Below the pieces are notes generated by a model. It was not told where the DNA came from and did not search any database. It was given only the letters and a program-made list of their open reading frames with translations. A stretch of DNA of 64,000 nt from Lachnospiraceae bacterium. Lineage in GTDB: Bacteria > Bacillota > Clostridia > Lachnospirales > Lachnospiraceae. The translations under genes were made by a program, and so were the position numbers. Shown here piece by piece: positions 41,743 through 63,182 of this stretch (positions are counted from its first letter, which is position 1; each line of letters starts with the position of its first letter). The stretch is taken from positions 1 to 64,000 of the forward strand of contig JAFXFO010000026.1 in the NCBI GenBank assembly GCA_017520425.1, given 5' to 3'.

Positions 41743-41817
41743 CGGGGTGTGGCTCAGTTTGGTTAGAGCGCCGTCTTAGGGAGGCGGAGGCCGCAAGTTC
41801 GAATCTTGTCACTCCGA
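41743..41817 (+). tRNA. tRNA-Pro (AGG)
   Basis: The acceptor CGGGGTG pairs with CACTCCG (one G-T), discriminator A. The stem CCGTC/GGCGG encloses loop TTAGGGA, giving anticodon AGG. Only one other proline tRNA (TGG) is in the window. Confidence 0.95.
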
Positions 41818-50561: not shown

Positions 50562-52556
50562 ATGAGAATTTATGTAAATGTAAATGCAGGTCATGACGGC
50601 AACGGTACCAAAGAAATGCCTTTCCGCCGTATTAATGATGCGGCAAAAATAGCTGTGGCAGGGGACGAGGTGCTGGTGGCACCGGGTATTTACCGTGAAT
50701 ATGTGAATCCTATCAATGCAGGTACGGCTGAGGCATGTATTACCTACCGTAGTGTGGAGCCTTTGGGGGCTGTCATTACCGGTGCGGAAGCGGTGAAGAA
50801 TTGGAAGAATTATGAAGGCGATGTATGGGTTTGCCGTGTAAATAACAGTATCTTTGGAGATTACAATCCTTACACCACTTATGTGTATGGTGACTGGTAT
50901 TTTGCCAAGGCAGACAAGCATACAGGTTGTGTATATTTGAACGATAAGGCATTGTATGAGACGGCAACCTTGGAAGAATGTATGAAGCCGGAAGTGTATG
51001 AGTACAGCTGGGTACCGGAAGATTCCCTTTACAAATGGTACACTGAGCAGGATACAGAGAAGGATGAAACCATTATTTATGCCAACTTCTTAGGGGCAAA
51101 TCCCAATGAGGAAAACGTAGAAATCAATGTAAGACGTATGTGCTTCTTCCCGGCAAAGACAGGAGTGAGCTACATAACCGTAAGCGGATTTAATATCAAT
51201 AAAGCAGCAACTACCTGGGCACCTCCCGCAGCATTCCAGGATGGTATGATCGGACCTCACTGGAGTAAGGGATGGATTATCGAGGATTGTGATATTTCGA
51301 ACAGTAAATGTTCCGGTATTTCCTTAGGTAAATATTATGACCCGGACAACAACCACTACTTTACCAACAAATACGTAAAGAGCCCTACCCAGATGGAGCG
51401 TGATGCGGTATGTCGCGGTCAGTTCCACGGTTGGAAGAAGGAGAGAATCGGTAGCCATATCATCCGTCGTAACAATATTCACCACTGCGAACAGGGCGGT
51501 ATTATCGGACGTATGGGTGGTGTGTTCAGTATCATCGAGGACAACCATATTCATCACATCAACAATATGATGGAGCTGGGCGGTGCTGAGATTTCCGGTA
51601 TTAAGATGCATGCTGCCATCGACGTAACCATTCGTCGTAATCATATCCATCATTGTACCATGGGTGTATGGTGTGACTGGGAAGCACAGGGTACCCGCAT
51701 TAGCCAGAACTTACTTCATGACAACCAGAGACCTAAGTTTGCCAAGGCACTGCCCGGCGGTATGATGTCACAGGATATCTTTATTGAGGTAAGTCACGGC
51801 CCCACTTTGATTGACCATAATATTATGCTTTCCGAAGCCGGTGTAAGATTTGCAACCCAGGGTGTGGCAATGGTACACAATCTGGTTTGCGGTGCACTGA
51901 CAGACGTAGGCGGCGGTACTACCTGGAGATATACACCTTATCATATGCCTCATCGTACGGAGGTTATGGGCTTTATGACCTTCCTTCATGGGGATGACAG
52001 ATTCTACAACAATATTTTCGTACAGAAGTATCCTGCACAGGATGTTATCACCCGTCATGATTCGGATGATGGATTTGATTCCGAGAACCGTGTGGTAGGT
52101 ACCTGGACCTTTGATGAATACCCCAGCTTTGAGGAGTGGAGTGCACAGTTTGATTTCAGCAAACCTGCTAATATGAAGGCGCTGGAGCCTGCTCATTTCG
52201 GACATTTGCCCGTATGGTCAGAAGGTAACTTATACCTGGGCGGTGCGAAGGCTTGGAAGAAGGAAGTAAACGGACAGGTAGTGGAAGGTACTTCCGAAGA
52301 TATTCGTGTGGAACTGGTAGAAAAGGATGGCAAGTATTATCTGGATACCAATGTGTATGAATTCTTAGGCGACTTCTCAGACAGAATGATTAACACCGAG
52401 ATACTGGGTAAGGCATTTGAACCCGAGCAGTATTTCGAGAATCCTGACAGAACGCCCATTACCTTTAATACCGACTATTTCGGTGAACATCGTGGTATCA
52501 ATATCATTCCCGGACCTTTTGCAGATGCACAGGATTGGAAAGAAAGAGAAGTATAG
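50562..52556 (+). CDS. GH120 beta-xylosidase (right-handed beta-helix)
   Basis: A 664-residue glycoside hydrolase. Beta-helix repeats dominate, and the protein is collinear, in my recollection, with the GH120 xylosidase XylC of Thermoanaerobacterium: INVRRMCFFPAKTG, TTWAPPAA, IGPHWSKGWIIED and GSHIIRRNNIHHCEQGGI. The likely catalytic acids lie in GVWCDWEAQGTR (nucleophile Asp) and DIFIEVSHGPTL (acid/base Glu). No signal peptide, so it acts on imported xylo-oligosaccharides. It stands alone with its own terminator and no adjacent xyl genes. Confidence 0.88.
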   Translation: MRIYVNVNAGHDGNGTKEMPFRRINDAAKIAVAGDEVLVAPGIYREYVNPINAGTAEACITYRSVEPLGAVITGAEAVKNWKNYEGDVWVCRVNNSIFGDYNPYTTYVYGDWYFAKADKHTGCVYLNDKALYETATLEECMKPEVYEYSWVPEDSLYKWYTEQDTEKDETIIYANFLGANPNEENVEINVRRMCFFPAKTGVSYITVSGFNINKAATTWAPPAAFQDGMIGPHWSKGWIIEDCDISNSKCSGISLGKYYDPDNNHYFTNKYVKSPTQMERDAVCRGQFHGWKKERIGSHIIRRNNIHHCEQGGIIGRMGGVFSIIEDNHIHHINNMMELGGAEISGIKMHAAIDVTIRRNHIHHCTMGVWCDWEAQGTRISQNLLHDNQRPKFAKALPGGMMSQDIFIEVSHGPTLIDHNIMLSEAGVRFATQGVAMVHNLVCGALTDVGGGTTWRYTPYHMPHRTEVMGFMTFLHGDDRFYNNIFVQKYPAQDVITRHDSDDGFDSENRVVGTWTFDEYPSFEEWSAQFDFSKPANMKALEPAHFGHLPVWSEGNLYLGGAKAWKKEVNGQVVEGTSEDIRVELVEKDGKYYLDTNVYEFLGDFSDRMINTEILGKAFEPEQYFENPDRTPITFNTDYFGEHRGINIIPGPFADAQDWKEREV

Positions 52557-52598: not shown

Positions 52599-52673
52599 GT
52601 GTGTTGGGAGCTTTTTGGTGGCGTTTTGCATGATATATAATAAGAGAGTTTTTTGTGGGTTTAAACCAGAGAA

Positions 52674-52914
52674 TTCTACCCATAGGACTGGTGATGAGTA
52701 CGTATGGGTAGAAAATTAAGAAGACTTACTTGGTTTTAGGACAAAAAGTTCTGCCCAAATGAACTAGAGAATTGGCTATGGGCAGAAAATTAGGAAGATT
52801 AGGATGGAAAGTTCTGTCTAAAGAGAAGGTGAAATGCTACAATAGGTAGAAGATTGAGAAATTATAGCTAGGAAATTCTGCCCATACAAGGTAAAATGGT
52901 ATTAATAGGCAGAA
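52674..52914. repeat. Hairpin array 1 upstream of the WYL regulator
   Basis: Four tandem units of about 64-75 bp, each an inverted repeat around TTCTRCCCA/TGGGYAGAA. Unit 1: TTCTACCCATA (52674) with TATGGGTAGAA (52703). Unit 2: TTCTGCCCA (52749) with TGGGCAGAA (52779). Unit 3: TTCTGTCTA (52812) with TAGGTAGAA (52843), paired through two G-U wobbles. Unit 4: TTCTGCCCATA (52876) with a partner ending 52914, one mismatch. Spacers share AAAATTA..GAAGA-type sequence. Pairing is kept while sequence drifts, which points to RNA structure. Not a CRISPR: arms are short and spacers are themselves repeats. Confidence 0.75.
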
Positions 52915-52939
52915 GAGATGTGAGAGGAAATGCAAAGCT

Positions 52940-53842
52940 ATGAAAATTGACCGCTTAATCGGAATTATTACCACCTTGCAACAGCAAAAGTTTGTGACGG
53001 CACCTTATCTGGCAGAGAAATTCGAGGTGTCCAGACGTACTATAAACCGTGATGTTGAAGATATTTGTAAAGCCGGTATTCCTATTGTGACAACACAAGG
53101 AGCGAATGGTGGTATCTCCATCATGGAGGGATTCGCTTTAGATACTACGGTGTTTACGGAGCAGGAATTATCCGCTATTTTTGCGGGCTTAAAGTCGCTG
53201 GACAGTGTGTCAAAATCAGCTTCTGCAGAAAAGCTGGCACAAAAAATAGGGGGCAACAAAAGTATTCCTGTGGCGGATCATATGGTAATCGATCTGGCAT
53301 CCTTTTATAAAGATGATTTGGCGGCGAAAATTGATACCATAAAGTTGGCAATCAAACAGGCAAAGTGTATTACATTTCACTATTGCTATAACAAAGGGGA
53401 AGCTGATAAGACCATTGAACCATACCTGATTGTATTTAAATGGTCGGATTGGTATGTATTCGGATTCTGTAAGGTGCGACAGGACTTTCGCATGTACAAA
53501 TTGCGACGGTTGTGGAATTTACAAATGACAGAAGAAAATTTCCTAGTCAGAGAAGTGCCGGAGGAGAAAAAGCAGTTTGGTGTGAATATGACGGATGATT
53601 ATGTGATTACAGCAGTATATGATGCATCGGTTAAATATAGATTGGTGGAAGAATATGGTCATACTTCTTTTATAGAGAAGGAGGATGGAAGCTTGCATAT
53701 GGAGTGGGGATTTACCAGACCTGAAAATGCTGTAGAATGGTTTTTGAGTTTCGGAGATAAGGTAAAAGTGCTGGAACCACCGGAAATGGTGGAACGGATG
53801 AAGAACGCATTGGAGCGTATCAAAAATTTATATGAAACATGA
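52940..53842 (+). CDS. WYL-domain transcriptional regulator (YafY/DeoR-type)
   Basis: 300 residues. The N-terminal HTH (~1-60; FVTAPYLAEKFEVSRRTINRD) is the HTH_11 type. A short linker follows, then a WYL domain (~135-215; CITFHYCYNKGE... and WSDWYVFGFCKVRQDFRMYK) and a C-terminal WCX-like part. WYL proteins are ligand-sensing regulators, several of which respond to DNA damage or single-stranded DNA. The gene sits directly after hairpin array 1 and 62 nt before the GyrI-like gene, which is probably its target. The ribosome site (GAGAGG) is 12 nt away, longer than usual. Confidence 0.9.
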   Translation: MKIDRLIGIITTLQQQKFVTAPYLAEKFEVSRRTINRDVEDICKAGIPIVTTQGANGGISIMEGFALDTTVFTEQELSAIFAGLKSLDSVSKSASAEKLAQKIGGNKSIPVADHMVIDLASFYKDDLAAKIDTIKLAIKQAKCITFHYCYNKGEADKTIEPYLIVFKWSDWYVFGFCKVRQDFRMYKLRRLWNLQMTEENFLVREVPEEKKQFGVNMTDDYVITAVYDASVKYRLVEEYGHTSFIEKEDGSLHMEWGFTRPENAVEWFLSFGDKVKVLEPPEMVERMKNALERIKNLYET

Positions 53843-53904
53843 CATACTGTTGTCTTGTTTGAGGTGTTATGGTGTAGATAAATGATTCACAAAGGAGAAA
53901 AAAC

Positions 53905-54831
53905 ATGGCTTTTGATTACAAGAAAGAGTATAAAGAATACTACATGCCACCAAAAACACCAACCATTATCACGATACCCGCTATGAATTATCTGGCAGTT
54001 CGTGGAAAGGGAAATCCTAATGATGAGAGTGGAGAATACAAGGATTCTATTGGCCTGTTGTATGGGATAGCGTTTACTCTTAAGATGAGTTATAAAGGAG
54101 AGCATAAAATAGAGGGCTATTTTGAATATGTGGTACCTCCTTTAGAAGGCTTTTGGTGGCAGGAAGGTGTACAAGGAATCGATTATGACCGTAAAGAAGA
54201 TTTTAATTTTATTTCTCTAATACGTCTGCCGGATTTTGTGACATATGCAGATTTTGAATGGGCGGTGGCTGAAGCTACCCGTAAAAAGAAGGCTGATTTT
54301 TCTAAGGTGGAGTATCTTACATATAACGAAGGAATCTGCGTGCAATGTATGCATATGGGGTCCTATGATGATGAGCCGGTTACCATTGAGGCTATGCATA
54401 AGTTTGCTAAGGAGAATGGATATGAACCGGAAATTACAGCGACACGCTATCATCATGAAATATATCTTTCAGACCCAAGAAAGTGTGATGTGAGTAAGTT
54501 GAAAACGGTGATCAGGCACCCGGTTAAGAAGATGGCGGAAATGCCTATGATAGATTCAAGATGCGGGCTTCACTGTACAGAGTGCGAATACAAAGATTCA
54601 TGCAATTGCGGTGGTTGTATTGAAACAAACGGACACCCGTTTCACGGGGAGTGTCCGATAGCAATATGTTGTCAGAAGAAGGGCGTTGTACACTGTGGGG
54701 AATGTGGCGATATTCCCTGCGAACTTCTGACACAGTATTCCTGTGATCCGGAGCATGGTGATACACCCCAAGGAGCCAGAATTGAGCAATGTAAGAAGTG
54801 GTATGCGGAAGGAAAGACAAAACATGAATAA
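53905..54831 (+). CDS. GyrI-like ligand-binding/hydrolase domain fused to DUF3795
   Basis: 308 residues. The N-terminal ~210 form a GyrI-like (SRPBCC-unrelated, COG4832-type) domain: PAMNYLAVRGKGNPN, VVPPLEGFWWQEG, LIRLPDFVTYADFEWA, MHMGSYDDEPVTIEAM and HHEIYLSDPRKCD. Relatives hydrolyse cyclopropane-type DNA-alkylating natural products. The C-terminal ~95 form a Cys-rich DUF3795 metal-binding module (CGLHCTECEYKDSCNCGGC, CPIAICCQKKGVVHCGECG). The fusion is not one I recognise as common. The gene overlaps the next by 8 nt and follows the WYL regulator. AGGAG precedes the ATG. Confidence 0.85.
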   Translation: MAFDYKKEYKEYYMPPKTPTIITIPAMNYLAVRGKGNPNDESGEYKDSIGLLYGIAFTLKMSYKGEHKIEGYFEYVVPPLEGFWWQEGVQGIDYDRKEDFNFISLIRLPDFVTYADFEWAVAEATRKKKADFSKVEYLTYNEGICVQCMHMGSYDDEPVTIEAMHKFAKENGYEPEITATRYHHEIYLSDPRKCDVSKLKTVIRHPVKKMAEMPMIDSRCGLHCTECEYKDSCNCGGCIETNGHPFHGECPIAICCQKKGVVHCGECGDIPCELLTQYSCDPEHGDTPQGARIEQCKKWYAEGKTKHE

Positions 54832-55879
54832 AAAAATACTATCATTACGTATGGAACGTCAGCATTTTGTAAAAAAAGCCAACGAAGAAGAATACAAAGA
54901 GTTATATCGCGATTTGCAACCGGGACAAAATGTGTATTGGAATGGCTTTGGTCAGCCGCCCACACTTAGCTTTCGAGTGGCTTTTGATGATATTGAATTT
55001 AATGGAGAAAGACAGGGTAAGCGAGAGTTGGTGAAAGGGCGTTTTGCAAGCGGCAACCTTGGGTGGATAGTGCCGGAGGAGATGGAACTGTTTGCGGCAC
55101 TTTATCGAAAACCGTTAAACAATCCAACTTGGGAACAGGAGCAGATCCTGCATTTGATTGAAAAGGCAGGTCCTTTTACTATCCAGCAGTTAAAAGAAGA
55201 AACAGGGATGTTAGTGAAGCAGATTACGCCTATTTTGCATCGTTTACAGGAGGCATTTTTGATTTATGAGGACCAATATGACGGAGAATGGGACCGTGGG
55301 TGGTATCGCTTTGAGGAGATGTTTCCGGATGTAAAATTGGAACGATACACAAGATTAGAGGCGTTGAAAATAGTATTGCAGCGCTTTGCCTATCGAATGG
55401 TTTGGTTTGACACAGCTATGGCTAAGTCATTTTATAAAATACCCGAGAAAGAAATCAAGGTAGCAGTAGCATTGCTGGTAGAGGAAGGCTTACTGGTGGC
55501 TGAAAGCACCGGCTATCTGTTGGCAAGTGATGTAGAACACCTGAAAAACTATGAGGCGGTGGAAATGCACATTGTATATCCAATCCATAGAAATGATATC
55601 TTATACAAAGCACAGGAGCATATTCTGAAGGAAAAGGCAAAAGTATGGACGGAAGGATTGGATTATGACCATGAACCATTGCAGTATTTGTTAATTGATG
55701 GGGAGTTTCACGGGGCGTCTGTTGGGCATTTTCGAAATGGCCCATACGATTTGAATGATGTTGTTTGCGATTTGCCGGATGCGGAGAGGAGGAGAACGGA
55801 AATCGTAGAAGCGATTCGAGACGTTAATTATGGAAAGATGCCGGAACGGTTTATGGGGAAGAAGCTTGTAGAAGAATAG
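54824..55879 (+). CDS. Winged-helix DNA-binding protein, AlkZ/HTH_42-like
   Basis: 351 residues, soluble. The layout LSLRMERQHFVKKA, then a small strand region and a three-part winged-helix array (GPFTIQQLKEETGMLVKQIT, DRGWYRFEEMFPDV, YTRLEALKIVLQRFAYRMV), resembles AlkZ/YcaQ-type HTH_42 proteins. Those act as DNA glycosylases on alkylated or crosslinked DNA. The QxQ/D catalytic motif of AlkZ is not clear here, so glycosylase activity is not assured. Start 54824 (AAGGAAAG) overlaps the GyrI-like gene by 8 nt, indicating coupled translation. Confidence 0.6.
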   Translation: MNKKILSLRMERQHFVKKANEEEYKELYRDLQPGQNVYWNGFGQPPTLSFRVAFDDIEFNGERQGKRELVKGRFASGNLGWIVPEEMELFAALYRKPLNNPTWEQEQILHLIEKAGPFTIQQLKEETGMLVKQITPILHRLQEAFLIYEDQYDGEWDRGWYRFEEMFPDVKLERYTRLEALKIVLQRFAYRMVWFDTAMAKSFYKIPEKEIKVAVALLVEEGLLVAESTGYLLASDVEHLKNYEAVEMHIVYPIHRNDILYKAQEHILKEKAKVWTEGLDYDHEPLQYLLIDGEFHGASVGHFRNGPYDLNDVVCDLPDAERRRTEIVEAIRDVNYGKMPERFMGKKLVEE

Positions 55880-55889
55880 AAAAATTACT

Positions 55890-55920
55890 AACGACCGGGT
55901 GAATAATCCGGTCGTTTGGC
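55890..55920 (+). terminator. Terminator after the AlkZ-like gene
   Basis: A 9-bp perfect stem AACGACCGG/CCGGTCGTT with a 9-nt loop, 10 nt after the stop codon. The T-run is short. Confidence 0.7.
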
Positions 55921-56020
55921 TGGTGATTAAAGAAGCTTCTCAAATAATAATTGAGCGAGTCCTTTCTAGTATTAGTTGATTGAGTTTTCTAAAAAAATAT
56001 ATTAAAATAAAAGTCAGAAA

Positions 56021-56057
56021 TACCCGAAATTCACCAACCTTTTGGTGGTTTCGGGTA
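56021..56057 (+). promoter_or_regulatory. Hairpin upstream of the ABC exporter genes
   Basis: TACCCGAAA/TTTCGGGTA with an inner CACCAA/TTGGTG (15 bp in all), about 60 bp before the exporter start. No T-run follows. It could be an operator or leader structure. The flanking bases are AT-rich and no clear promoter can be assigned. Confidence 0.45.
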
Positions 56058-56119
56058 CATATATAGTGTGACAATTAAAAAGGTTCATTGGAGAATAAAA
56101 ATCATTAGGAGAAAACTTC

Positions 56120-58054
56120 GTGAAAAAGAGTACTGTAACAGAAGAAAATAAAAAGAGGAAAATACGTAGGGGTGAAACTGTTTTATCGGGGGAGCGAGAT
56201 AAAGAGGGGAAGTTAAAGGTGCCCCATACCGATTATGGTCTGTTTTCCAATATGGCTTACATCGTGAAAAAGATGTGGCAATACAAAAGGATTTGCATCT
56301 GGCTTATTTTGATTGGTGCAGTGACTCAGTCCGTGATGCGGTATTTGTGGAGCTACATTGCAAAATTTGTAATTGATATCGTACAGATTCAGGCAGGACA
56401 AGCGCAGAAGGACATAAAACCACTTGTATGGGTGTTGTTAATCGCTCTTATTGTGGAAGTGGTTTGTATGGGTGCCAATATCATTATTGAGAGTAAAACA
56501 TGGTATTTTATCAAGGTACGTATGGATATGATAACAGAACGTATCGACAAGGTGTTATCCATGGATTATCAGACTCTGGAGCAACCCCATATGCTGAATA
56601 TGTTTCAGAAGGCTAATAATGCTACCGGAAGTAATAATAGTGGCGTGGAAGGTATGATGCATTGTATGAACAAGATGGGTACGCTGATAGTGACCATGAT
56701 TGTCAGTGCGTCTGCCATCATCGGTTTGGATTGGCGTTTGATTATTGCGCTGACGGTGGCTATGCTGACCAATTACGGCTCTTATTTACTGTCCGTGAAG
56801 CAAGACAAGGTTGCCTATTGGGACAAGATGGCACCTAACTGGCGAAAAATAAATTATATGGAGCGTTGTACTCAGGATTTTGATTATGCCAAGGACGTCC
56901 GCCTTTTTAACATGAAAAATTGGCTTTTGGGCAAGCAGGCGGAAGTTTTAAGGGATTCCGAGAAGAAATATGCAAAGAGCCGTAATTACTGGCTACGACA
57001 TTCCTTTATCTATTCCTTTACCAGTTTGTGTTCCGGTGCCATCATGTACTATATTCTGATTGTGGAAGTGTTGGAAAAGGGTTTGGAAATCGGTAATTTT
57101 ACGCTGTTTTTAGGACTATGCGCGGCCTTTTCTTCCGCTCTTTCGGATTTTTATGCCACAGTAGGAGATATCCAGCGTTGCTCCATGCAGACCGATGACT
57201 TTAGAACCTTTATGGATTATCCTACGGAAGAGACAGGGGATTTTCTGGAGCTTTCTAAAGTGTTGGAAGGAAAATCACCAAGCTTTGAGTTTAAAAATGT
57301 ATCCTTCCGCTATGAAGGAGCTGAGCAGTATGCTTTAAAGAATCTGAATCTAAGCTTCCCGGCAGGACAGCGTCTGGCAGTGGTTGGGTTAAACGGTGCA
57401 GGCAAAACAACCTTTATCAAGCTGCTATTACGTTTATATGATGTGACGGAAGGTGAAATCCTTTTAAATGGTGTGAATATTAAAAGATTTCGAAGAAATG
57501 AATATTACAAGGTGTTTGCACCGGTATTCCAGAATGTGGAGCTATTCGCCTTTCCCATGGCGGAGAATGTGTCCATGCTAAGTCCCGAAAATACGGACAA
57601 GAAACTGGCAGAGGAATGTATTACTATGGCAGGTTTGAGCCAGAAGGTAGAAAGTTTGGAAAAAGGTGTGGATACAGAACTTCTAAAAATTGTTCATGAA
57701 GATGGTGTGGATTTGTCCGGTGGCGAAAAGCAGAAGCTGGCACTGGCAAGGGCTTTGTACAAGGATGCACCGGTGATTGTACTGGACGAGCCTACCGCAG
57801 CCTTGGATGCACTGGCAGAGTATGAACTGTACCAGAATTTTGATAAGATGATTCAGGAAAAGTCCGCGGTTTATATTTCTCACAGATTGTCTTCCACCCG
57901 TTTCTGCGATGTGATTGCCATGTTTGTGGCCGGTGAAATGGTGGAATACGGTACCCATGAGGAATTGCTTGCAAAAAATGGTGCTTATGCAGAGATTTTC
58001 CGAGTACAGGCACAGTATTATGAGGAACAGGAGGGCGGAGCAGATGAAAGATAA
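56120..58054 (+). CDS. ABC exporter half (type I: TM plus ATPase), subunit 1
   Basis: 644 residues from a GTG with AGGAG upstream. A basic cytoplasmic N-terminus (~1-55) precedes a six-helix membrane domain (to ~375). The ATPase domain has Walker A VGLNGAGKTTF, signature LSGGEKQKLALARAL, Walker B VIVLDEPTAALD and the H-loop in YISHRLSST. It overlaps the next exporter gene by 11 nt, and the two form a heterodimer. It probably exports a small molecule or peptide; the link to the GyrI/AlkZ genes upstream is by position only. Confidence 0.94.
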   Translation: MKKSTVTEENKKRKIRRGETVLSGERDKEGKLKVPHTDYGLFSNMAYIVKKMWQYKRICIWLILIGAVTQSVMRYLWSYIAKFVIDIVQIQAGQAQKDIKPLVWVLLIALIVEVVCMGANIIIESKTWYFIKVRMDMITERIDKVLSMDYQTLEQPHMLNMFQKANNATGSNNSGVEGMMHCMNKMGTLIVTMIVSASAIIGLDWRLIIALTVAMLTNYGSYLLSVKQDKVAYWDKMAPNWRKINYMERCTQDFDYAKDVRLFNMKNWLLGKQAEVLRDSEKKYAKSRNYWLRHSFIYSFTSLCSGAIMYYILIVEVLEKGLEIGNFTLFLGLCAAFSSALSDFYATVGDIQRCSMQTDDFRTFMDYPTEETGDFLELSKVLEGKSPSFEFKNVSFRYEGAEQYALKNLNLSFPAGQRLAVVGLNGAGKTTFIKLLLRLYDVTEGEILLNGVNIKRFRRNEYYKVFAPVFQNVELFAFPMAENVSMLSPENTDKKLAEECITMAGLSQKVESLEKGVDTELLKIVHEDGVDLSGGEKQKLALARALYKDAPVIVLDEPTAALDALAEYELYQNFDKMIQEKSAVYISHRLSSTRFCDVIAMFVAGEMVEYGTHEELLAKNGAYAEIFRVQAQYYEEQEGGADER

Positions 58055-59828
58055 TGTAATTTTGAAAGTATATAAGTATTTCCTGCCATCAGCCTGGAGA
58101 CGGTATAAGGGCTACTTTATCATTCGTTTTTTACGTTTGATTGTAAATACCATTACCCCCTTTGTCCCTATTCTTTTTATGCCACGGATTGTGGATGAAC
58201 TGGTGGGAAGCAGGGATGTGAAAAGAATTACCACCTATGTGTTGGTGATTTTGATTACAGAATATGTATTAAATAATTTAAACGGTCTGTTTGGGAATAT
58301 TTTGGAGCGTTACAGTCAGAAGTTTGAAAATTATTATACCGCACTAATGAGTGGCAGAATCATGGAGTTGGATTTCCAGTTGACGGAAGATAAGAAGGCT
58401 TTGGATCAGATAGAGCTGGCTAAGAACGGTATGAGCTGGTATTCCGGAGGGTTAAACGGTATTGTAGAGCCTTTATTTAATATGGCGACGGCCCTTCTTA
58501 CCGTGGCCGGTGTGGTGGTGATTATAGCCGGTCAGGCTCCACTTATTCTATTGATTACTCTGGTACTTTTGGTGTTGTCTGCGGTCATCAATAAGAAGAT
58601 GAATCAAATCGAGCAGGAGCAGTATGCGAAATTATCAAAAATCAACAGAGTATTCGGCTATATGGGCTGGGAACTGACGGATTTTCGCTACGGAAAGGAT
58701 ATCAGACTGTATGGCGCTAAAGACATGATGGTAAATAAGTGGCGTAATTACAGTGCTACCTTTGTGGAAATGTGGGGAGAACTTTCCCACAAGCTGATCT
58801 CCTTACGTTTGTTACTCATGATAGTGGATGTGATTCGTGATTTCGGCATCTATCTTTATGTGGGTGTTTTGGCTATTTGGGGACGAATTAGTATTGGTGT
58901 AACCACGCAGATGTTTACGGCAGCAGGTACCTTTTACAACTCTATGAGAAATCTGGTGATGGGGTATCAGGATTTGTGCAAAAGGACCCATTATGCAAAC
59001 GAATATGTGAAGTTTATGGATTATCCGGCTGCCATTATGAAGGGAACGAAGCCGGTTGGTGAAGGTCCTCATACCTTTGAATTTAGAAATATGTCCTTCT
59101 CTTATCCGGGTGCGGATGTGGAAGTGTTAAAGGATATTAATCTGACCCTGACGCCCGGAGAGCATCTTTCCATCGTAGGTCTCAACGGTGCCGGCAAAAC
59201 TACTTTGGTGAAGCTGTTATGTCGTTTGTATGACCCTACGGAAGGCGCCATTTACATGGATGGGGTGGATATCAGAGAGTATGATTATGAGCAGTATATG
59301 AATGTATTTGCCCCGGTATTTCAGGACTTTAAACTTTTTGCTTTTTCCATGAAGGAAAACGTGTTGATTCAGGCAAAGGATACACCGGAGAGGGAGGCGG
59401 AGATGACCAAGGTCCTGGACAAGGTGGGACTGACAGAAAAGCTTTCCACACTTTCCAAAGGGGTGAATACCTATGTGTTTAAGCATTTCGATGAGGATGG
59501 TATCGAACCCTCTGGCGGAGAACAGCAGAAGCTGGCTATTGCCAGAGCCCTGTATAAGAATGCACCGGTGGTGATTCTGGATGAGCCTACTGCGGCCTTG
59601 GACCCCATGGCGGAGTATGAAATCTATCGCCAGTTTAATGACCTTGTGGATGAAAGAACGGCGATTTACATATCCCACAGACTTTCCAGCTGCCAGTTCT
59701 GTGACAGGATTGCAGTATTCTCCGATAAGGAGATTAAGGAGTACGGTACCCATGCCGAGCTGGTGAATAAGAAGAATGGTATCTATGCAGAAATGTTTGC
59801 TGCTCAGGCGCAGTATTATCAGGCGTAA
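58044..59828 (+). CDS. ABC exporter half (type I), subunit 2
   Basis: 594 residues. The ATG at 58044 has GGAGGGCGGAG upstream and overlaps the partner gene by 11 nt. A six-helix membrane domain is followed by an ATPase with Walker A VGLNGAGKTTL, signature ending PSGGEQQKLAIARAL (Pro before SGGE instead of Leu), Walker B VVILDEPTAALDP and H-loop YISHRLSSC. One signature is slightly degenerate, as often seen in heterodimeric exporters with one consensus ATP site. Confidence 0.94.
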   Translation: MKDNVILKVYKYFLPSAWRRYKGYFIIRFLRLIVNTITPFVPILFMPRIVDELVGSRDVKRITTYVLVILITEYVLNNLNGLFGNILERYSQKFENYYTALMSGRIMELDFQLTEDKKALDQIELAKNGMSWYSGGLNGIVEPLFNMATALLTVAGVVVIIAGQAPLILLITLVLLVLSAVINKKMNQIEQEQYAKLSKINRVFGYMGWELTDFRYGKDIRLYGAKDMMVNKWRNYSATFVEMWGELSHKLISLRLLLMIVDVIRDFGIYLYVGVLAIWGRISIGVTTQMFTAAGTFYNSMRNLVMGYQDLCKRTHYANEYVKFMDYPAAIMKGTKPVGEGPHTFEFRNMSFSYPGADVEVLKDINLTLTPGEHLSIVGLNGAGKTTLVKLLCRLYDPTEGAIYMDGVDIREYDYEQYMNVFAPVFQDFKLFAFSMKENVLIQAKDTPEREAEMTKVLDKVGLTEKLSTLSKGVNTYVFKHFDEDGIEPSGGEQQKLAIARALYKNAPVVILDEPTAALDPMAEYEIYRQFNDLVDERTAIYISHRLSSCQFCDRIAVFSDKEIKEYGTHAELVNKKNGIYAEMFAAQAQYYQA

Positions 59829-59888: not shown

Positions 59889-60144
59889 ATTGGGCATAGA
59901 AGAGATTGGTGACTCTTCTATGCCCAATTTATATGTGCGTTTATAGAGAAAATCTGATTAAAATGTACATTTTGGGCATAGAAAGAGTAGTTATTGGATT
60001 AGTGCCCGTATAATAGGGCGAAACTTGGGCATAAAAAGAAGAAAATCTCTGTGCATGCCCAAAAGCAATAATAATGTGGTCATTTTAGGTTGGGACGGTT
60101 TTGGAATTGGGTGTAGAATAAGAAAAATAAGAGTCTATACCCAA
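59889..60144. repeat. Hairpin array 2 downstream of the ABC exporter
   Basis: Alternating copies of TTGGGC(AT)AGA and its complement. A 16-bp perfect hairpin, 59889-59904 with 59913-59928 (TTGGGCATAGA core). A copy at 59972 with a poor partner near 60000. TTGGGCAT (60025) with ATGCCCAA (60055). TTGGGTGTAGA (60107) with TCTATACCCAA (60134), kept by one G-U. Neighbouring arms can also pair inside-out, e.g. 59917-59927 with 59972-59982. The core GGGY(AT)AGAA is shared with array 1. The first hairpin may double as the operon terminator. Otherwise this 480-bp gap holds no gene. Confidence 0.7.
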
Positions 60145-60306: not shown

Positions 60307-60948
60307 ATGAGCAAAGACAAGGACAATAAAAACTTCTGGCAAAGATATGCCCCTATATATTGGATGTTTGTTAGAAGCGCAGGTAAGGCATATGACGAGA
60401 TTTCAGAACGGATAAGAAACTACATACAAAAAGATAGTAAGGTGTTGGAACTGGCCTGTGGTACCGGAGAATTTACCTTTCGTTTGGCGAAGAAATGTGA
60501 AAGCTGGACGGCAACGGACTTTTCCGAAAACATGCTAACGGAAGCAAAGAATGCCTATGCAAAGACTGGTCAAAGTATGGAAGGATTAAATTTTGAATGG
60601 CAGGACGCGACAGATTTATCTTATGAAAAAGAATGCTTTGACGCGGTGATGATAGCTAATGCTCTTCACATTATGCCGGAACCGGAAAAGGCACTAGAGG
60701 AGATTCGACGAGTGTTAAAGCCGGAAGGGCTATTATTTGCCCCGACCTTTATGTATCGTGAGGGGAGTGGATTTTTGATTCGCTCAGGATTCTTTAAGCT
60801 TTTCGGATTTAAGGCGTATATGAATCTGCACGGAAAGGAATTTGCAGAGTTTATCGAAAAGCAAGGCTTTCAAGTATTGGAGTGTGATATAATCAAATGT
60901 AAGGTATCTCCATTGTGTTGTTTGATTGCAAGGAAAAGAGAGGTGTAG
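60307..60948 (+). CDS. Class I SAM-dependent methyltransferase
   Basis: 213 residues, single Rossmann domain. SAM motif I is VLELACGTGEFTFRLA near residue 48, followed by an acidic WTATDFSENML and the post-motif ALHIMPEPEKALEEIRRVLKPEG (UbiE/Methyltransf_11 style). The substrate is unknown; small molecule or lipid is more likely than RNA. GGAGG precedes the ATG. A small membrane-protein gene follows by 2 nt, so the two are in one operon under the palindromic promoter. Confidence 0.9.
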   Translation: MSKDKDNKNFWQRYAPIYWMFVRSAGKAYDEISERIRNYIQKDSKVLELACGTGEFTFRLAKKCESWTATDFSENMLTEAKNAYAKTGQSMEGLNFEWQDATDLSYEKECFDAVMIANALHIMPEPEKALEEIRRVLKPEGLLFAPTFMYREGSGFLIRSGFFKLFGFKAYMNLHGKEFAEFIEKQGFQVLECDIIKCKVSPLCCLIARKREV

Positions 60949-60950
60949 AT

Positions 60951-61442
60951 ATGGTTTTATTGATAGAATGTGTGGTGTGTTGTGTATTGTTTACTGCGTT
61001 TGTTATGCGGGCTATCTATAAGGACCCGATCAGCCTGATAAAGTCCTATCCGCCGGCGATTATTAAGAGAGTAGAAGAATTGTCCCAATATAAGGATACA
61101 ATCAAGAGTCGTGAAAAAAAGCATGCTTATCAAAAATTGATAGCGGTTTTTGTGTTTGTAATCGTATTGGCTGCGTTGGCATACTTTTCGGGATGTAGGA
61201 CCTTGGGAACCACATTCAGACATGTTTTTATATTGTTTTTGGTGGTGAATTTTTATGATTTCCTGGTGCTGGACTGGTGGCATTTTTGCCACAGTAAAAG
61301 AGTCAGAATACCTGGAACAGAAGATATGATAAAGGAATATCAAAATCCATGGTTTCACTTCCGAGGTGCTTGTAAAGGAACTGTTTTAGGATTGATGGTA
61401 GCGCTGATGGCCGGTGGATTGATACATTTTATAGCAAAGTAA
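60951..61442 (+). CDS. Small integral membrane protein
   Basis: About 163 residues from the ATG at 60951. About four hydrophobic segments: ~2-18, ~62-80, ~88-106 and ~140-160. Between the last two is VLDWWHFCHSKRVRIPGTEDM. No family recognised. Its tight spacing to the methyltransferase gene suggests a shared task, possibly on a membrane lipid; this is inference. Confidence 0.75.
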   Translation: MVLLIECVVCCVLFTAFVMRAIYKDPISLIKSYPPAIIKRVEELSQYKDTIKSREKKHAYQKLIAVFVFVIVLAALAYFSGCRTLGTTFRHVFILFLVVNFYDFLVLDWWHFCHSKRVRIPGTEDMIKEYQNPWFHFRGACKGTVLGLMVALMAGGLIHFIAK

Positions 61443-61462: not shown

Positions 61463-61499
61463 CAACCTTTTTCACTTACCTGTGTCTATATAAGTGAAA
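61463..61499 (+). promoter_or_regulatory. ECF-type promoter with inverted repeat, upstream of the sigma-factor gene
   Basis: CAACCTTTTT (-35-like, 61463-61472) and GTCTATATA (-10-like, from 61484) fit the AAC/GTC pattern of ECF sigma promoters and not the sigma-A consensus. TTTCACTTA (61470-61478) and TAAGTGAAA (61491-61499) form a perfect 9-bp inverted repeat over it. Autoregulation by the sigma factor is likely. Confidence 0.6.
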
Positions 61500-61559
61500 G
61501 CTTTCAAAACCGGTACAATAAGTTTAAATTCACCGGTACAGATTATGAGGGAACAGTTG

Positions 61560-63182
61560 ATGAACAAACAAGAAGCAGAAAAAGTAATTGCAGAATACGT
61601 AAAGCCTATATTCGGATTTGCACTGAAGCGTTGCAAATCCCAGGAGGATGCTGAGGATTTGGCCCAGGAGATTGTATTAAGAGCATTTAAGAGTCTTCTG
61701 GTGAAGGAGGATATCCTGGATGTGGGGAAGTTTATATGGACCATTGCCCATAATACTTTGAGCAACTATTATCGTAGTGCATCTAAAATGGCAATAGGTG
61801 TATCCGTTGATGATGTGGCAGAGACATTGGCAGACCCGAGGAATGATTTTGATGAAGAGGAGGACAAGGAAGAGATAGGCCGTTTGCAGAAAGAAATTGC
61901 CTATTTGTCCAAGCTGCAGCGTCAAATTGTGATTGCATATTACTTTGAAAACCGTAAACAGGTGGAGATTGCAGAGGAACTGCAGGTGCCTGTGGGAACG
62001 GTGAAATGGCACTTGTTTGAAGCTAAGAAAGAGCTGAAAAGAGGTATGGAAAAGATGAGAGAAGCGAGTGAATTAAAGTTTAACCCTATTAAATTTGATG
62101 TTTATGGATTTAGTGGGTCCATGGGAACGAAGTCGCCGGATGAATTTTTGCGTTCTGCCATTGCACAGAACATCTGCTATATTGTACGAAAAGAAGCAAA
62201 ATCCATTCACGAAATTGCCGATTCGTTGGGCGTATCCCCTGTATTTGTGGAGGGCGAAGTAGCATTTTTGGAGGAGTACGGATTTTTACTGCAACAAAAG
62301 GATAAGTATATTGCCAATTTTGTCATTGATGAGGCCACTTCGGAGGAACTTGCATTACAGAGCGAGGTTTACAGACAGGCAGCAGAACCCTTTGCCAATG
62401 ATTTGTATGATGAATTGATAAAGAGTGGTATTTTAGAGGATGAGAGGATTCGTTGTTCGAAAGAGGATAAGAATTTCCTGTTATGGTCCCTGCTGCCCTT
62501 TGCAATTGCTTATTCCTCAGAAGCGGAGGAAGAGATATCCTTTGACGAGGTGGCAACCCTTCGCCCGGATGGTGGGAAAAATATTTATCAGGCAATTGTA
62601 TTGCCCAAGGATAAAAAATTGACGGGATTATACGAGGCAATGAAGAATTGGTGCGGTCCCATGTGGAACGGTACAGAGGAATTGATGCTTTGGCAAATTG
62701 ATACACCATGGTCAGAACGGGAAAAGCCCGATGAAAGAAATGTGCAGGAAGAGCATAGCAAAGTGCTGGCATTATATGGTTATCAACAGAATAATGTTTT
62801 GTCCCGGTCTGATTATGCATGGCTTGCGGAAAGAGGATATATAAAGCTGAAACGAAATGGAAATCCGGATTTTCTGGCAGAATGGCAGATTGTGATTTTG
62901 CAGGATGCGCAGATTAAGAAAGCGTTGATTACCATAGGAAAAAAGATTCAGGAGAAATATAAAGAGAGGTTTAAGCAATTGAAGGGTTCTTATGAAGAAG
63001 TCATACTTGCAGATACACCAAAGCATTTGAAGAAGATGAGACAGTATTTTGCGCAGTATACTCTCAATTGTGACGGCGCGTTTATATGGTATTGTATATG
63101 TGTTCTTTTAGAAAATGGCAAGCTGAAGCTGCCTACAGAGGAGCAACGGAAAGCTTTGACCACTGTTCTTTGTTCTTTATAA
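61560..63182 (+). CDS. ECF-type RNA polymerase sigma factor with long C-terminal extension
   Basis: About 540 residues from ATG 61560 (GAGGGA upstream; ATG 61545 and 61494 are alternatives). Residues ~1-75 are sigma-70 region 2 (FALKRCKSQEDAEDLAQEIV and FIWTIAHNTLSNYYR). Residues ~110-165 are region 4 (LSKLQRQIVIAYYFENRKQ, EELQVPVGTVKWHLFEAKKEL). The remaining ~360 residues have no membrane segment and include a second possible HTH (~215-265; KSIHEIADSLGVSPVFVEGE). ECF factors are usually about 200 residues, so this is a large extension, possibly a sensor or built-in regulator. No separate anti-sigma gene is seen. Confidence 0.85.
   Translation: MNKQEAEKVIAEYVKPIFGFALKRCKSQEDAEDLAQEIVLRAFKSLLVKEDILDVGKFIWTIAHNTLSNYYRSASKMAIGVSVDDVAETLADPRNDFDEEEDKEEIGRLQKEIAYLSKLQRQIVIAYYFENRKQVEIAEELQVPVGTVKWHLFEAKKELKRGMEKMREASELKFNPIKFDVYGFSGSMGTKSPDEFLRSAIAQNICYIVRKEAKSIHEIADSLGVSPVFVEGEVAFLEEYGFLLQQKDKYIANFVIDEATSEELALQSEVYRQAAEPFANDLYDELIKSGILEDERIRCSKEDKNFLLWSLLPFAIAYSSEAEEEISFDEVATLRPDGGKNIYQAIVLPKDKKLTGLYEAMKNWCGPMWNGTEELMLWQIDTPWSEREKPDERNVQEEHSKVLALYGYQQNNVLSRSDYAWLAERGYIKLKRNGNPDFLAEWQIVILQDAQIKKALITIGKKIQEKYKERFKQLKGSYEEVILADTPKHLKKMRQYFAQYTLNCDGAFIWYCICVLLENGKLKLPTEEQRKALTTVLCSL

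Follow-up and report, generated by a model that had tools for sequence, protein, structure and literature searches.

What brings a WYL-family regulator, a GyrI-like protein and a protein of the AlkZ fold together in one row of genes? This question was raised by a 64,000-nucleotide stretch of a Lachnospiraceae genome (the window; contig 20 of a 2.9-Mb, 90% complete assembly), for which a first-pass annotation had described a WYL regulator, a GyrI-like/DUF3795 fusion and an AlkZ-like protein in a row, two of the genes overlapping, followed by an exporter, flanked by repeat arrays, and together possibly forming a defence against gut genotoxins. Gene calls and a Pfam scan bore out the row, the overlap and the exporter pair behind it. 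The hidden Markov model search of the three proteins that it had called for placed the WYL, GyrI and DUF3795 domains above the Pfam cut-offs and AlkZ-rel below. The GyrI-like and DUF3795 domains form a single 308-amino acid frame (53905-54831, +; PF06445 62.4 bits and PF12675 30.2 bits, both above the cut-off), the end of which is overlapped by the start of the AlkZ-fold gene by 8 nt. The families in the module are known and their arrangement is new; in the literature searched, the term "WYL domain" was not found together with "GyrI" or with "AlkZ." Whether the set is a stress-inducible chemical-defence operon we regard as an even call, and the evidence is set out below.

The GyrI domain is very likely an active hydrolase, judging from its sequence. 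It matched Lin2189 (3b49) over residues 3-207 (phmmer E 5.7e-57) with identity at 96 of 199 aligned positions, and the hydrolase residues sought were present: the two glutamates mutated in the Lin2189-yatakemycin co-crystal (E157 and E185) have aligned counterparts with the same numbers in the window domain, and the aromatic cage is identical at Y46, Y54, W85 and Y187 and still aromatic at Y58F, W99F and F154Y. Forty-seven GyrI sequences were aligned, comprising the window, locus L042 and genes linked to WYL or DUF1706 genes (one gene is entered twice, as L113 and L199); E157 and W85 were kept in all 47, and E185 and Y187 in 46, with a gap in the last. Both glutamates are essential in the Lin2189-type hydrolase, 8 of 8 tested subfamily members hydrolyse yatakemycin, and 4 of 4 expressed ones protect Escherichia coli (PMC5684135); in the same study, SbmC, BmrR and Rob, which are without the glutamate pair and the cage, do not hydrolyse yatakemycin. 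The window domain thus resembles Lin2189, YtkR7 and C10R6 (PMC5684135) in family, in both catalytic glutamates and in the four identical cage residues, and differs from them in the three substitutions, in its fusion to DUF3795 and in its position behind a WYL regulator.

The regulator has the helix-turn-helix (HTH), WYL and WCX architecture of PafBC/SiwR-type stress regulators, and its nearest solved relative by sequence is PafC (E 6.5e-7). A WYL activator is reported to drive DinB-superfamily genes under genotoxic stress (PMC10693628). SiwR, described in the same work, is likewise an HTH-WYL regulator and neighbours genes of the DinB superfamily, with glyoxalases of PF18029 added in some species (PMC10693628). 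It differs from the window regulator in being encoded on the strand opposite its targets and in having DinB_2/DUF664 neighbours, whereas the module has GyrI, DUF3795 and AlkZ-fold partners.

For the third protein, the name "AlkZ-like" holds in part. The predicted structure has the three winged helices and barrel of the AlkZ/AlkX fold, and the model matches AlkX (YcaQ), AlkZ and the Lhr C-terminal domain (HTH_42) over almost its full length (315-319 aligned residues). By sequence score the name is weak: AlkZ-rel (PF24741) reached 16.8 bits, below its cut-off of 26.5, and PF06224 (HTH_42) was not listed for the window protein at E up to 1, a threshold at which it was listed in 42 of 79 AlkZ-fold family members (best 2.1e-7). 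The active site does not speak for it either. Because of the loop spacing, catalytic residues would be expected within residues 25-55, near V37-Y38-W39; none of the 79 members has a triplet like QΦQ, QΦD or HΦQ there, with Q, D or N accepted in third place. Triplets of the (Q/H)Φ(Q/D) type occur elsewhere, at 64-66 in 19 of 79 members (third position variable) and at 18-20 in 2 of 79, and the first 70 residues of the window protein contain none.

The glycosylase reading is half supported. It is possible, if rather doubtful, that the protein functions as a DNA glycosylase by way of a new active site, a situation reported for the Lhr C-terminal domain. Such an enzyme would fit the nearly full-length match of the predicted fold and the aromatic loop, which is conserved at Y38 in 79 of 79 members and at W39 in 78 of 79, and Lhr is described in the literature as a uracil glycosylase despite having no QxQ; an equivalent of the Lhr aspartate was not mapped, and the conservation would fit a binding protein equally well. 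Among PDB sequences, the AlkZ-fold profile reached only MarR-type winged-helix regulators at E < 0.001 (best E 6.6e-4). This result, like the empty loop, would suit a different account, in which the operon protects against xenobiotics or antibiotics in general: the WYL regulator would answer chemical stresses of many kinds, the GyrI domain would mainly bind or hydrolyse non-genotoxic small molecules and the AlkZ-fold protein would be a DNA-binding co-regulator. We consider that account unlikely, though worth weighing, and the GyrI domains argue against it by keeping the residue pair that separates the tested hydrolases from SbmC, BmrR and Rob (PMC5684135).

Conservation of the gene linkage was examined from both ends of the module. 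From the AlkZ-fold end, 80 loci were used; they are the best 80 of the 127 relatives retrieved with the AlkZ-fold protein and are hence conditioned on its gene. These relatives were mostly metagenome-assembled genomes of Clostridia from animal guts, with a few others. Of the 72 loci with 1.5 kb or more of sequence ahead of the AlkZ-fold gene, 48 had a same-strand DUF3795 domain no more than 4.5 kb upstream (29 of them no more than 150 nt), 37 had an upstream WYL gene at over 50% identity, and 34 had both. The 36 loci that contain all three form 630 pairs, of which 550 shared no flanking gene family, 72 shared one and 8 shared two or more; the module therefore occurs in many surroundings. From the WYL end, 299 genomes of the window's family yielded 86 WYL matches at 42% identity or more, in 83 genomes, window included. 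At least 40 of the 86 had a GyrI gene on their own strand no more than 4 kb away, always downstream, and 10 had DUF3795 in that range; no GyrI or DUF3795 on the opposite strand was seen near the 86 among the matches listed. At least 11 of 56 more distant WYL matches had GyrI nearby, and 48 of 107 longer GyrI matches among those listed had WYL nearby. The GyrI counts are lower bounds. In addition, tblastn showed further GyrI or DUF3795 traces in WYL regions that had counted as lacking them, and the simple open reading frame caller misses and splits genes. The gene order is beyond chance, with WYL and DUF3795 upstream of the AlkZ-fold gene and GyrI downstream of WYL.

Fusions tie the parts together further. 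The PF12675 match covers residues 218-276 of the window fusion, and an alignment of 43 DUF3795 sequences, window included, has 16 invariant columns, 9 of them Cys; the domain is probably metal-binding. Elsewhere it shares a frame with the AlkZ-fold protein (L019, 4030-5355, 442 amino acids; L057, 7704-9047, 448 amino acids), and at L047 (6933-7760) it was confirmed by Pfam at the C terminus of a protein resembling flavin mononucleotide (FMN) reductase. Its fusion to GyrI, AlkZ-fold and FMN-reductase partners is why we argue that the parts act together. DUF3795 was scarcely mentioned in the literature searched. Other frames were noted as well: L056 (4506-5468) was judged by eye, from its similarity to L047, to be another fusion with an FMN-reductase-like protein; two tandem DUF3795 units share one frame at L052 (7240-7989) and L061 (3235-3759); and a 984-amino acid frame at L073 (4998-7949) ends in DUF3795, its long front part resembling a beta-galactosidase-type glycoside hydrolase.

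Several observations speak against a chemical-defence operon. Neither WYL nor DUF3795 was found upstream of the AlkZ-fold gene in 21 of 72 loci, and a Lin2189-type GyrI gene lies beside an intact AlkZ-fold gene only in the window and in L042 (1 of 80 loci, as a separate gene). No WYL of the window type, GyrI or DUF3795 was called in the stretch near the intact AlkZ-fold genes of genomes G157, G097 and G046, and 59 of the 107 longer GyrI matches had no WYL within 4 kb among the matches listed. When a conserved operator was sought, the upstream regions of 17 close WYL genes shared no k-mer above shuffles. The absence of the triplet from the expected loop in all 79 AlkZ-fold members counts on the same side, as does the wider range of the GyrI, glyoxalase and acetyltransferase families, whose substrates include non-genotoxic compounds; the cargo described below accordingly fits general xenobiotic defence too. 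The 21 loci, together with the exporter and repeats, which are not conserved parts, could be taken to mean that the genes are adjacent without any functional relation; for the WYL, GyrI, DUF3795 and AlkZ-fold genes this is contradicted by the linkage statistics and the fusions, and we give it hardly any credence. The AlkZ-fold gene is rare in the window's family (6 of 299 genomes, window included), and decayed pieces of GyrI, DUF3795 and AlkZ-fold genes were found in two genomes, G161 and G115. G161 (L011) has a WYL piece joined to GyrI as well as remnants of DUF3795 and the AlkZ-fold gene; G115 (L012) has AlkZ-fold and DUF3795 remnants that lie about 3 kb apart.

Cargo genes were surveyed in 79 of 85 WYL regions (39 with GyrI and 40 of the 46 without). 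The 149 further operon genes included 14 GyrI-like, 14 Cass2, 11 glyoxalase, 11 GNAT, 11 YoaP, 8 TfoX_N, 6 isochorismatase, 6 YjbR, 5 DJ-1 and 3 DUF1706 members, counts that overlap. The 110 genes surveyed upstream of the AlkZ-fold gene included 10 GNAT, 5 AlkZ-rel, 5 PNPOx, 5 glyoxalase, 4 flavin reductase and 2 bleomycin-resistance members. As a control, 149 genes were drawn at random from 265 lying more than 5 kb away in L014-L093, which are other genomes than those of the WYL cargo; GNAT was found 3 times and each other named family at most once (the top 25 of 140 families reach down to one member, so any other family has at most one). Set against this control, the glyoxalase/bleomycin-resistance, acetyltransferase and flavin reductase cargo speaks for the chemical-defence operon. 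Relatives would appear to keep the regulator and often DUF3795, with the enzymes swapped. The breadth of YoaP, GNAT, TfoX_N, YjbR, DJ-1 and isochorismatase cargo favours general xenobiotic defence; pointing instead to DNA-reactive compounds are an enrichment of DUF1706 and the L077 island, which also holds a canonical AlkZ with QAQ (PF06224 100 bits).

DUF1706, the family of both ClbS and DfsB (PMC10693628), gave 32 matches in 31 of the 299 genomes. At least 12 of 26 full-length genes lay within 3.5 kb of a WYL or GyrI match on the same strand (at least 14 of 32 with fragments included), where uniform placement would expect 0.055; among the matches listed, none lay beside them on the opposite strand, and a control transporter family gave 0 of the 150 matches listed for it. 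Four DUF1706 genes adjoin both WYL and GyrI, in the order WYL-GyrI-DUF1706 in G268, G178 and G162 and WYL-DUF1706-GyrI in G077. Nine full-length genes stand beside WYL, 6 of them adjoining a distant WYL kind that is 30-34% identical to the window's. In L187-L193, DUF1706 genes adjoin genes for GyrI-type hydrolases, and in several cases a WYL gene precedes them. For one linked DUF1706 protein, the best match was the uncharacterised 5cof (E 3.4e-10), followed by ClbS (6anr, E 5.8e-9) and sibling bacteriocin (E 4.9e-8); its family membership is sure, and a ClbS function is not, because 5cof outranks ClbS and sibling bacteriocin also matches.

ClbS is described in the literature as a colibactin cyclopropane hydrolase whose fold is unrelated to that of the GyrI-type hydrolases, which share the reaction; a review covering both handles them separately in its available portion. 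Colibactin is a plausible target. That the operon is owed specifically to colibactin from pks-positive neighbours, with GyrI replacing ClbS, is improbable in our judgement. ClbS-family genes do occur in the same operons of other genomes, and a panel of ClbS-like proteins, down to 26.8% identity to E. coli ClbS, is reported as protective against colibactin throughout. Against this, the available portions of the literature report no GyrI-type hydrolase acting on colibactin, the window genome (G000, 90% complete) has no PF08020 (DUF1706) match, and 14 of the 26 full-length DUF1706 genes are near no WYL or GyrI match among those listed, which also tells against the broader defence operon.

If the set is a chemical-defence operon, the WYL regulator would sense DNA damage or a related signal and turn on the downstream genes. 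The GyrI-DUF3795 protein would open strained electrophilic rings of incoming DNA-reactive small molecules, with cyclopropanes as first candidates; Glu185 would be the nucleophile and Glu157 would assist, as proposed for Lin2189. The AlkZ-fold protein might bind DNA and remove or mark adducts that escaped the GyrI enzyme. DUF3795, given its fusions to GyrI in the window and to the AlkZ-fold protein elsewhere, may couple the parts. Only tentatively do we go further and propose a WYL-headed, modular operon of gut Clostridia in which unrelated enzymes, including two cyclopropane-hydrolase folds (GyrI and DUF1706/ClbS), meet one warhead, with DUF3795 coupling and an AlkZ-fold protein with a new active site, as an inducible defence against cyclopropane genotoxins such as colibactin.

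The yatakemycin network (efflux YtkR6, hydrolase YtkR7, glycosylase YtkR2; PMC9854587) is similar in combining a hydrolase and a DNA-repair-type protein with a nearby transporter. It differs in that its DNA protein is AlkD-related (PMC9854587) whereas that of the window has the AlkZ fold, in that no biosynthetic cluster was found among the scanned genes beside the window module, and in that the window exporter is not conserved with the hydrolase and DNA protein. The half-exporter genes overlap by 11 nt. Homologues stand next to the module at 90-93% in the near relative L014 (half-exporter 1 at 93%), a 44% homologue lies 1.7 kb downstream on the same strand in L053, opposite-strand homologues occur in L050 and L054, and none was seen in the other 76 of 80 loci among the matches listed; the exporter, closely conserved beside the module in L014 alone, drops out of it. 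The repeats fared no better, not being found upstream of 31 other WYL orthologues. Tandem Repeats Finder listed no arrays there, and what is present is a small number of hairpins formed by inverted repeats. With at most 1 mismatch, TTCTGCCCAWA occurs 10 times in the window, 5 of them at 52674-52886; TTGGGCATAGAA occurs 5 times, 4 of them at 59890-60036, each total exceeding every shuffle. Genotoxin defence as first proposed is therefore partly supported, by linkage and hydrolase residues, half supported in its glycosylase, and without support from exporter and repeats.

Table 1. Features of the module and its flanks in the window
Feature	Position	Strand	Remark
Lineage-specific inverted repeats upstream of WYL gene	52660..52915	.	
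WYL-family transcriptional regulator (HTH_11 + WYL + WCX)	52940..53842	+	all three domains above Pfam cut-offs
GyrI-like domain, Lin2189-type cyclopropanoid hydrolase subfamily	53905..54537	+	about residues 1-211 of fusion
DUF3795 Cys-rich domain	54538..54831	+	about residues 212-308, in frame with GyrI
AlkZ-fold protein without AlkZ/AlkX catalytic triplet in expected loop	54824..55879	+	best start ATG 54824
Two strong hairpins between AlkZ-fold gene and exporter genes	55885..56065	+	fold z-scores -4.1 and -5.4
ABC half-exporter 1, neighbour outside conserved module	56120..58054	+	PF00005
ABC half-exporter 2, neighbour outside conserved module	58044..59828	+	PF00005
Second set of hairpin repeats after exporter	59889..60040	.	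fold z -6.4

The hairpins behind the AlkZ-fold gene possibly mark the end of the transcription unit; because no T run follows them, we infer rather than read off a terminator function. Further out, a protein with a GH120 insertion domain and a beta-helix (50562-52556) lies directly upstream of the module, at 60307-61442 a UbiE-like methyltransferase gene overlaps the gene of a small protein that has no Pfam match above the cut-off, and an ECF-type sigma factor (61494-63182) carries a C-terminal extension of about 380 amino acids without a Pfam match. A tRNA-Pro gene with the anticodon AGG, uncommon in bacteria, is located at 41743-41817.

The least expected parts are the AlkZ-fold family without the usual motif, which offers a test of how the AlkZ fold works, and DUF3795 as a putative coupling domain, for which the module provides a functional context. 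If the defensive role is true, it would account for the survival of common gut bacteria exposed to the DNA-attacking small molecules of their neighbours, and it would name concrete resistance genes to seek around colibactin producers.

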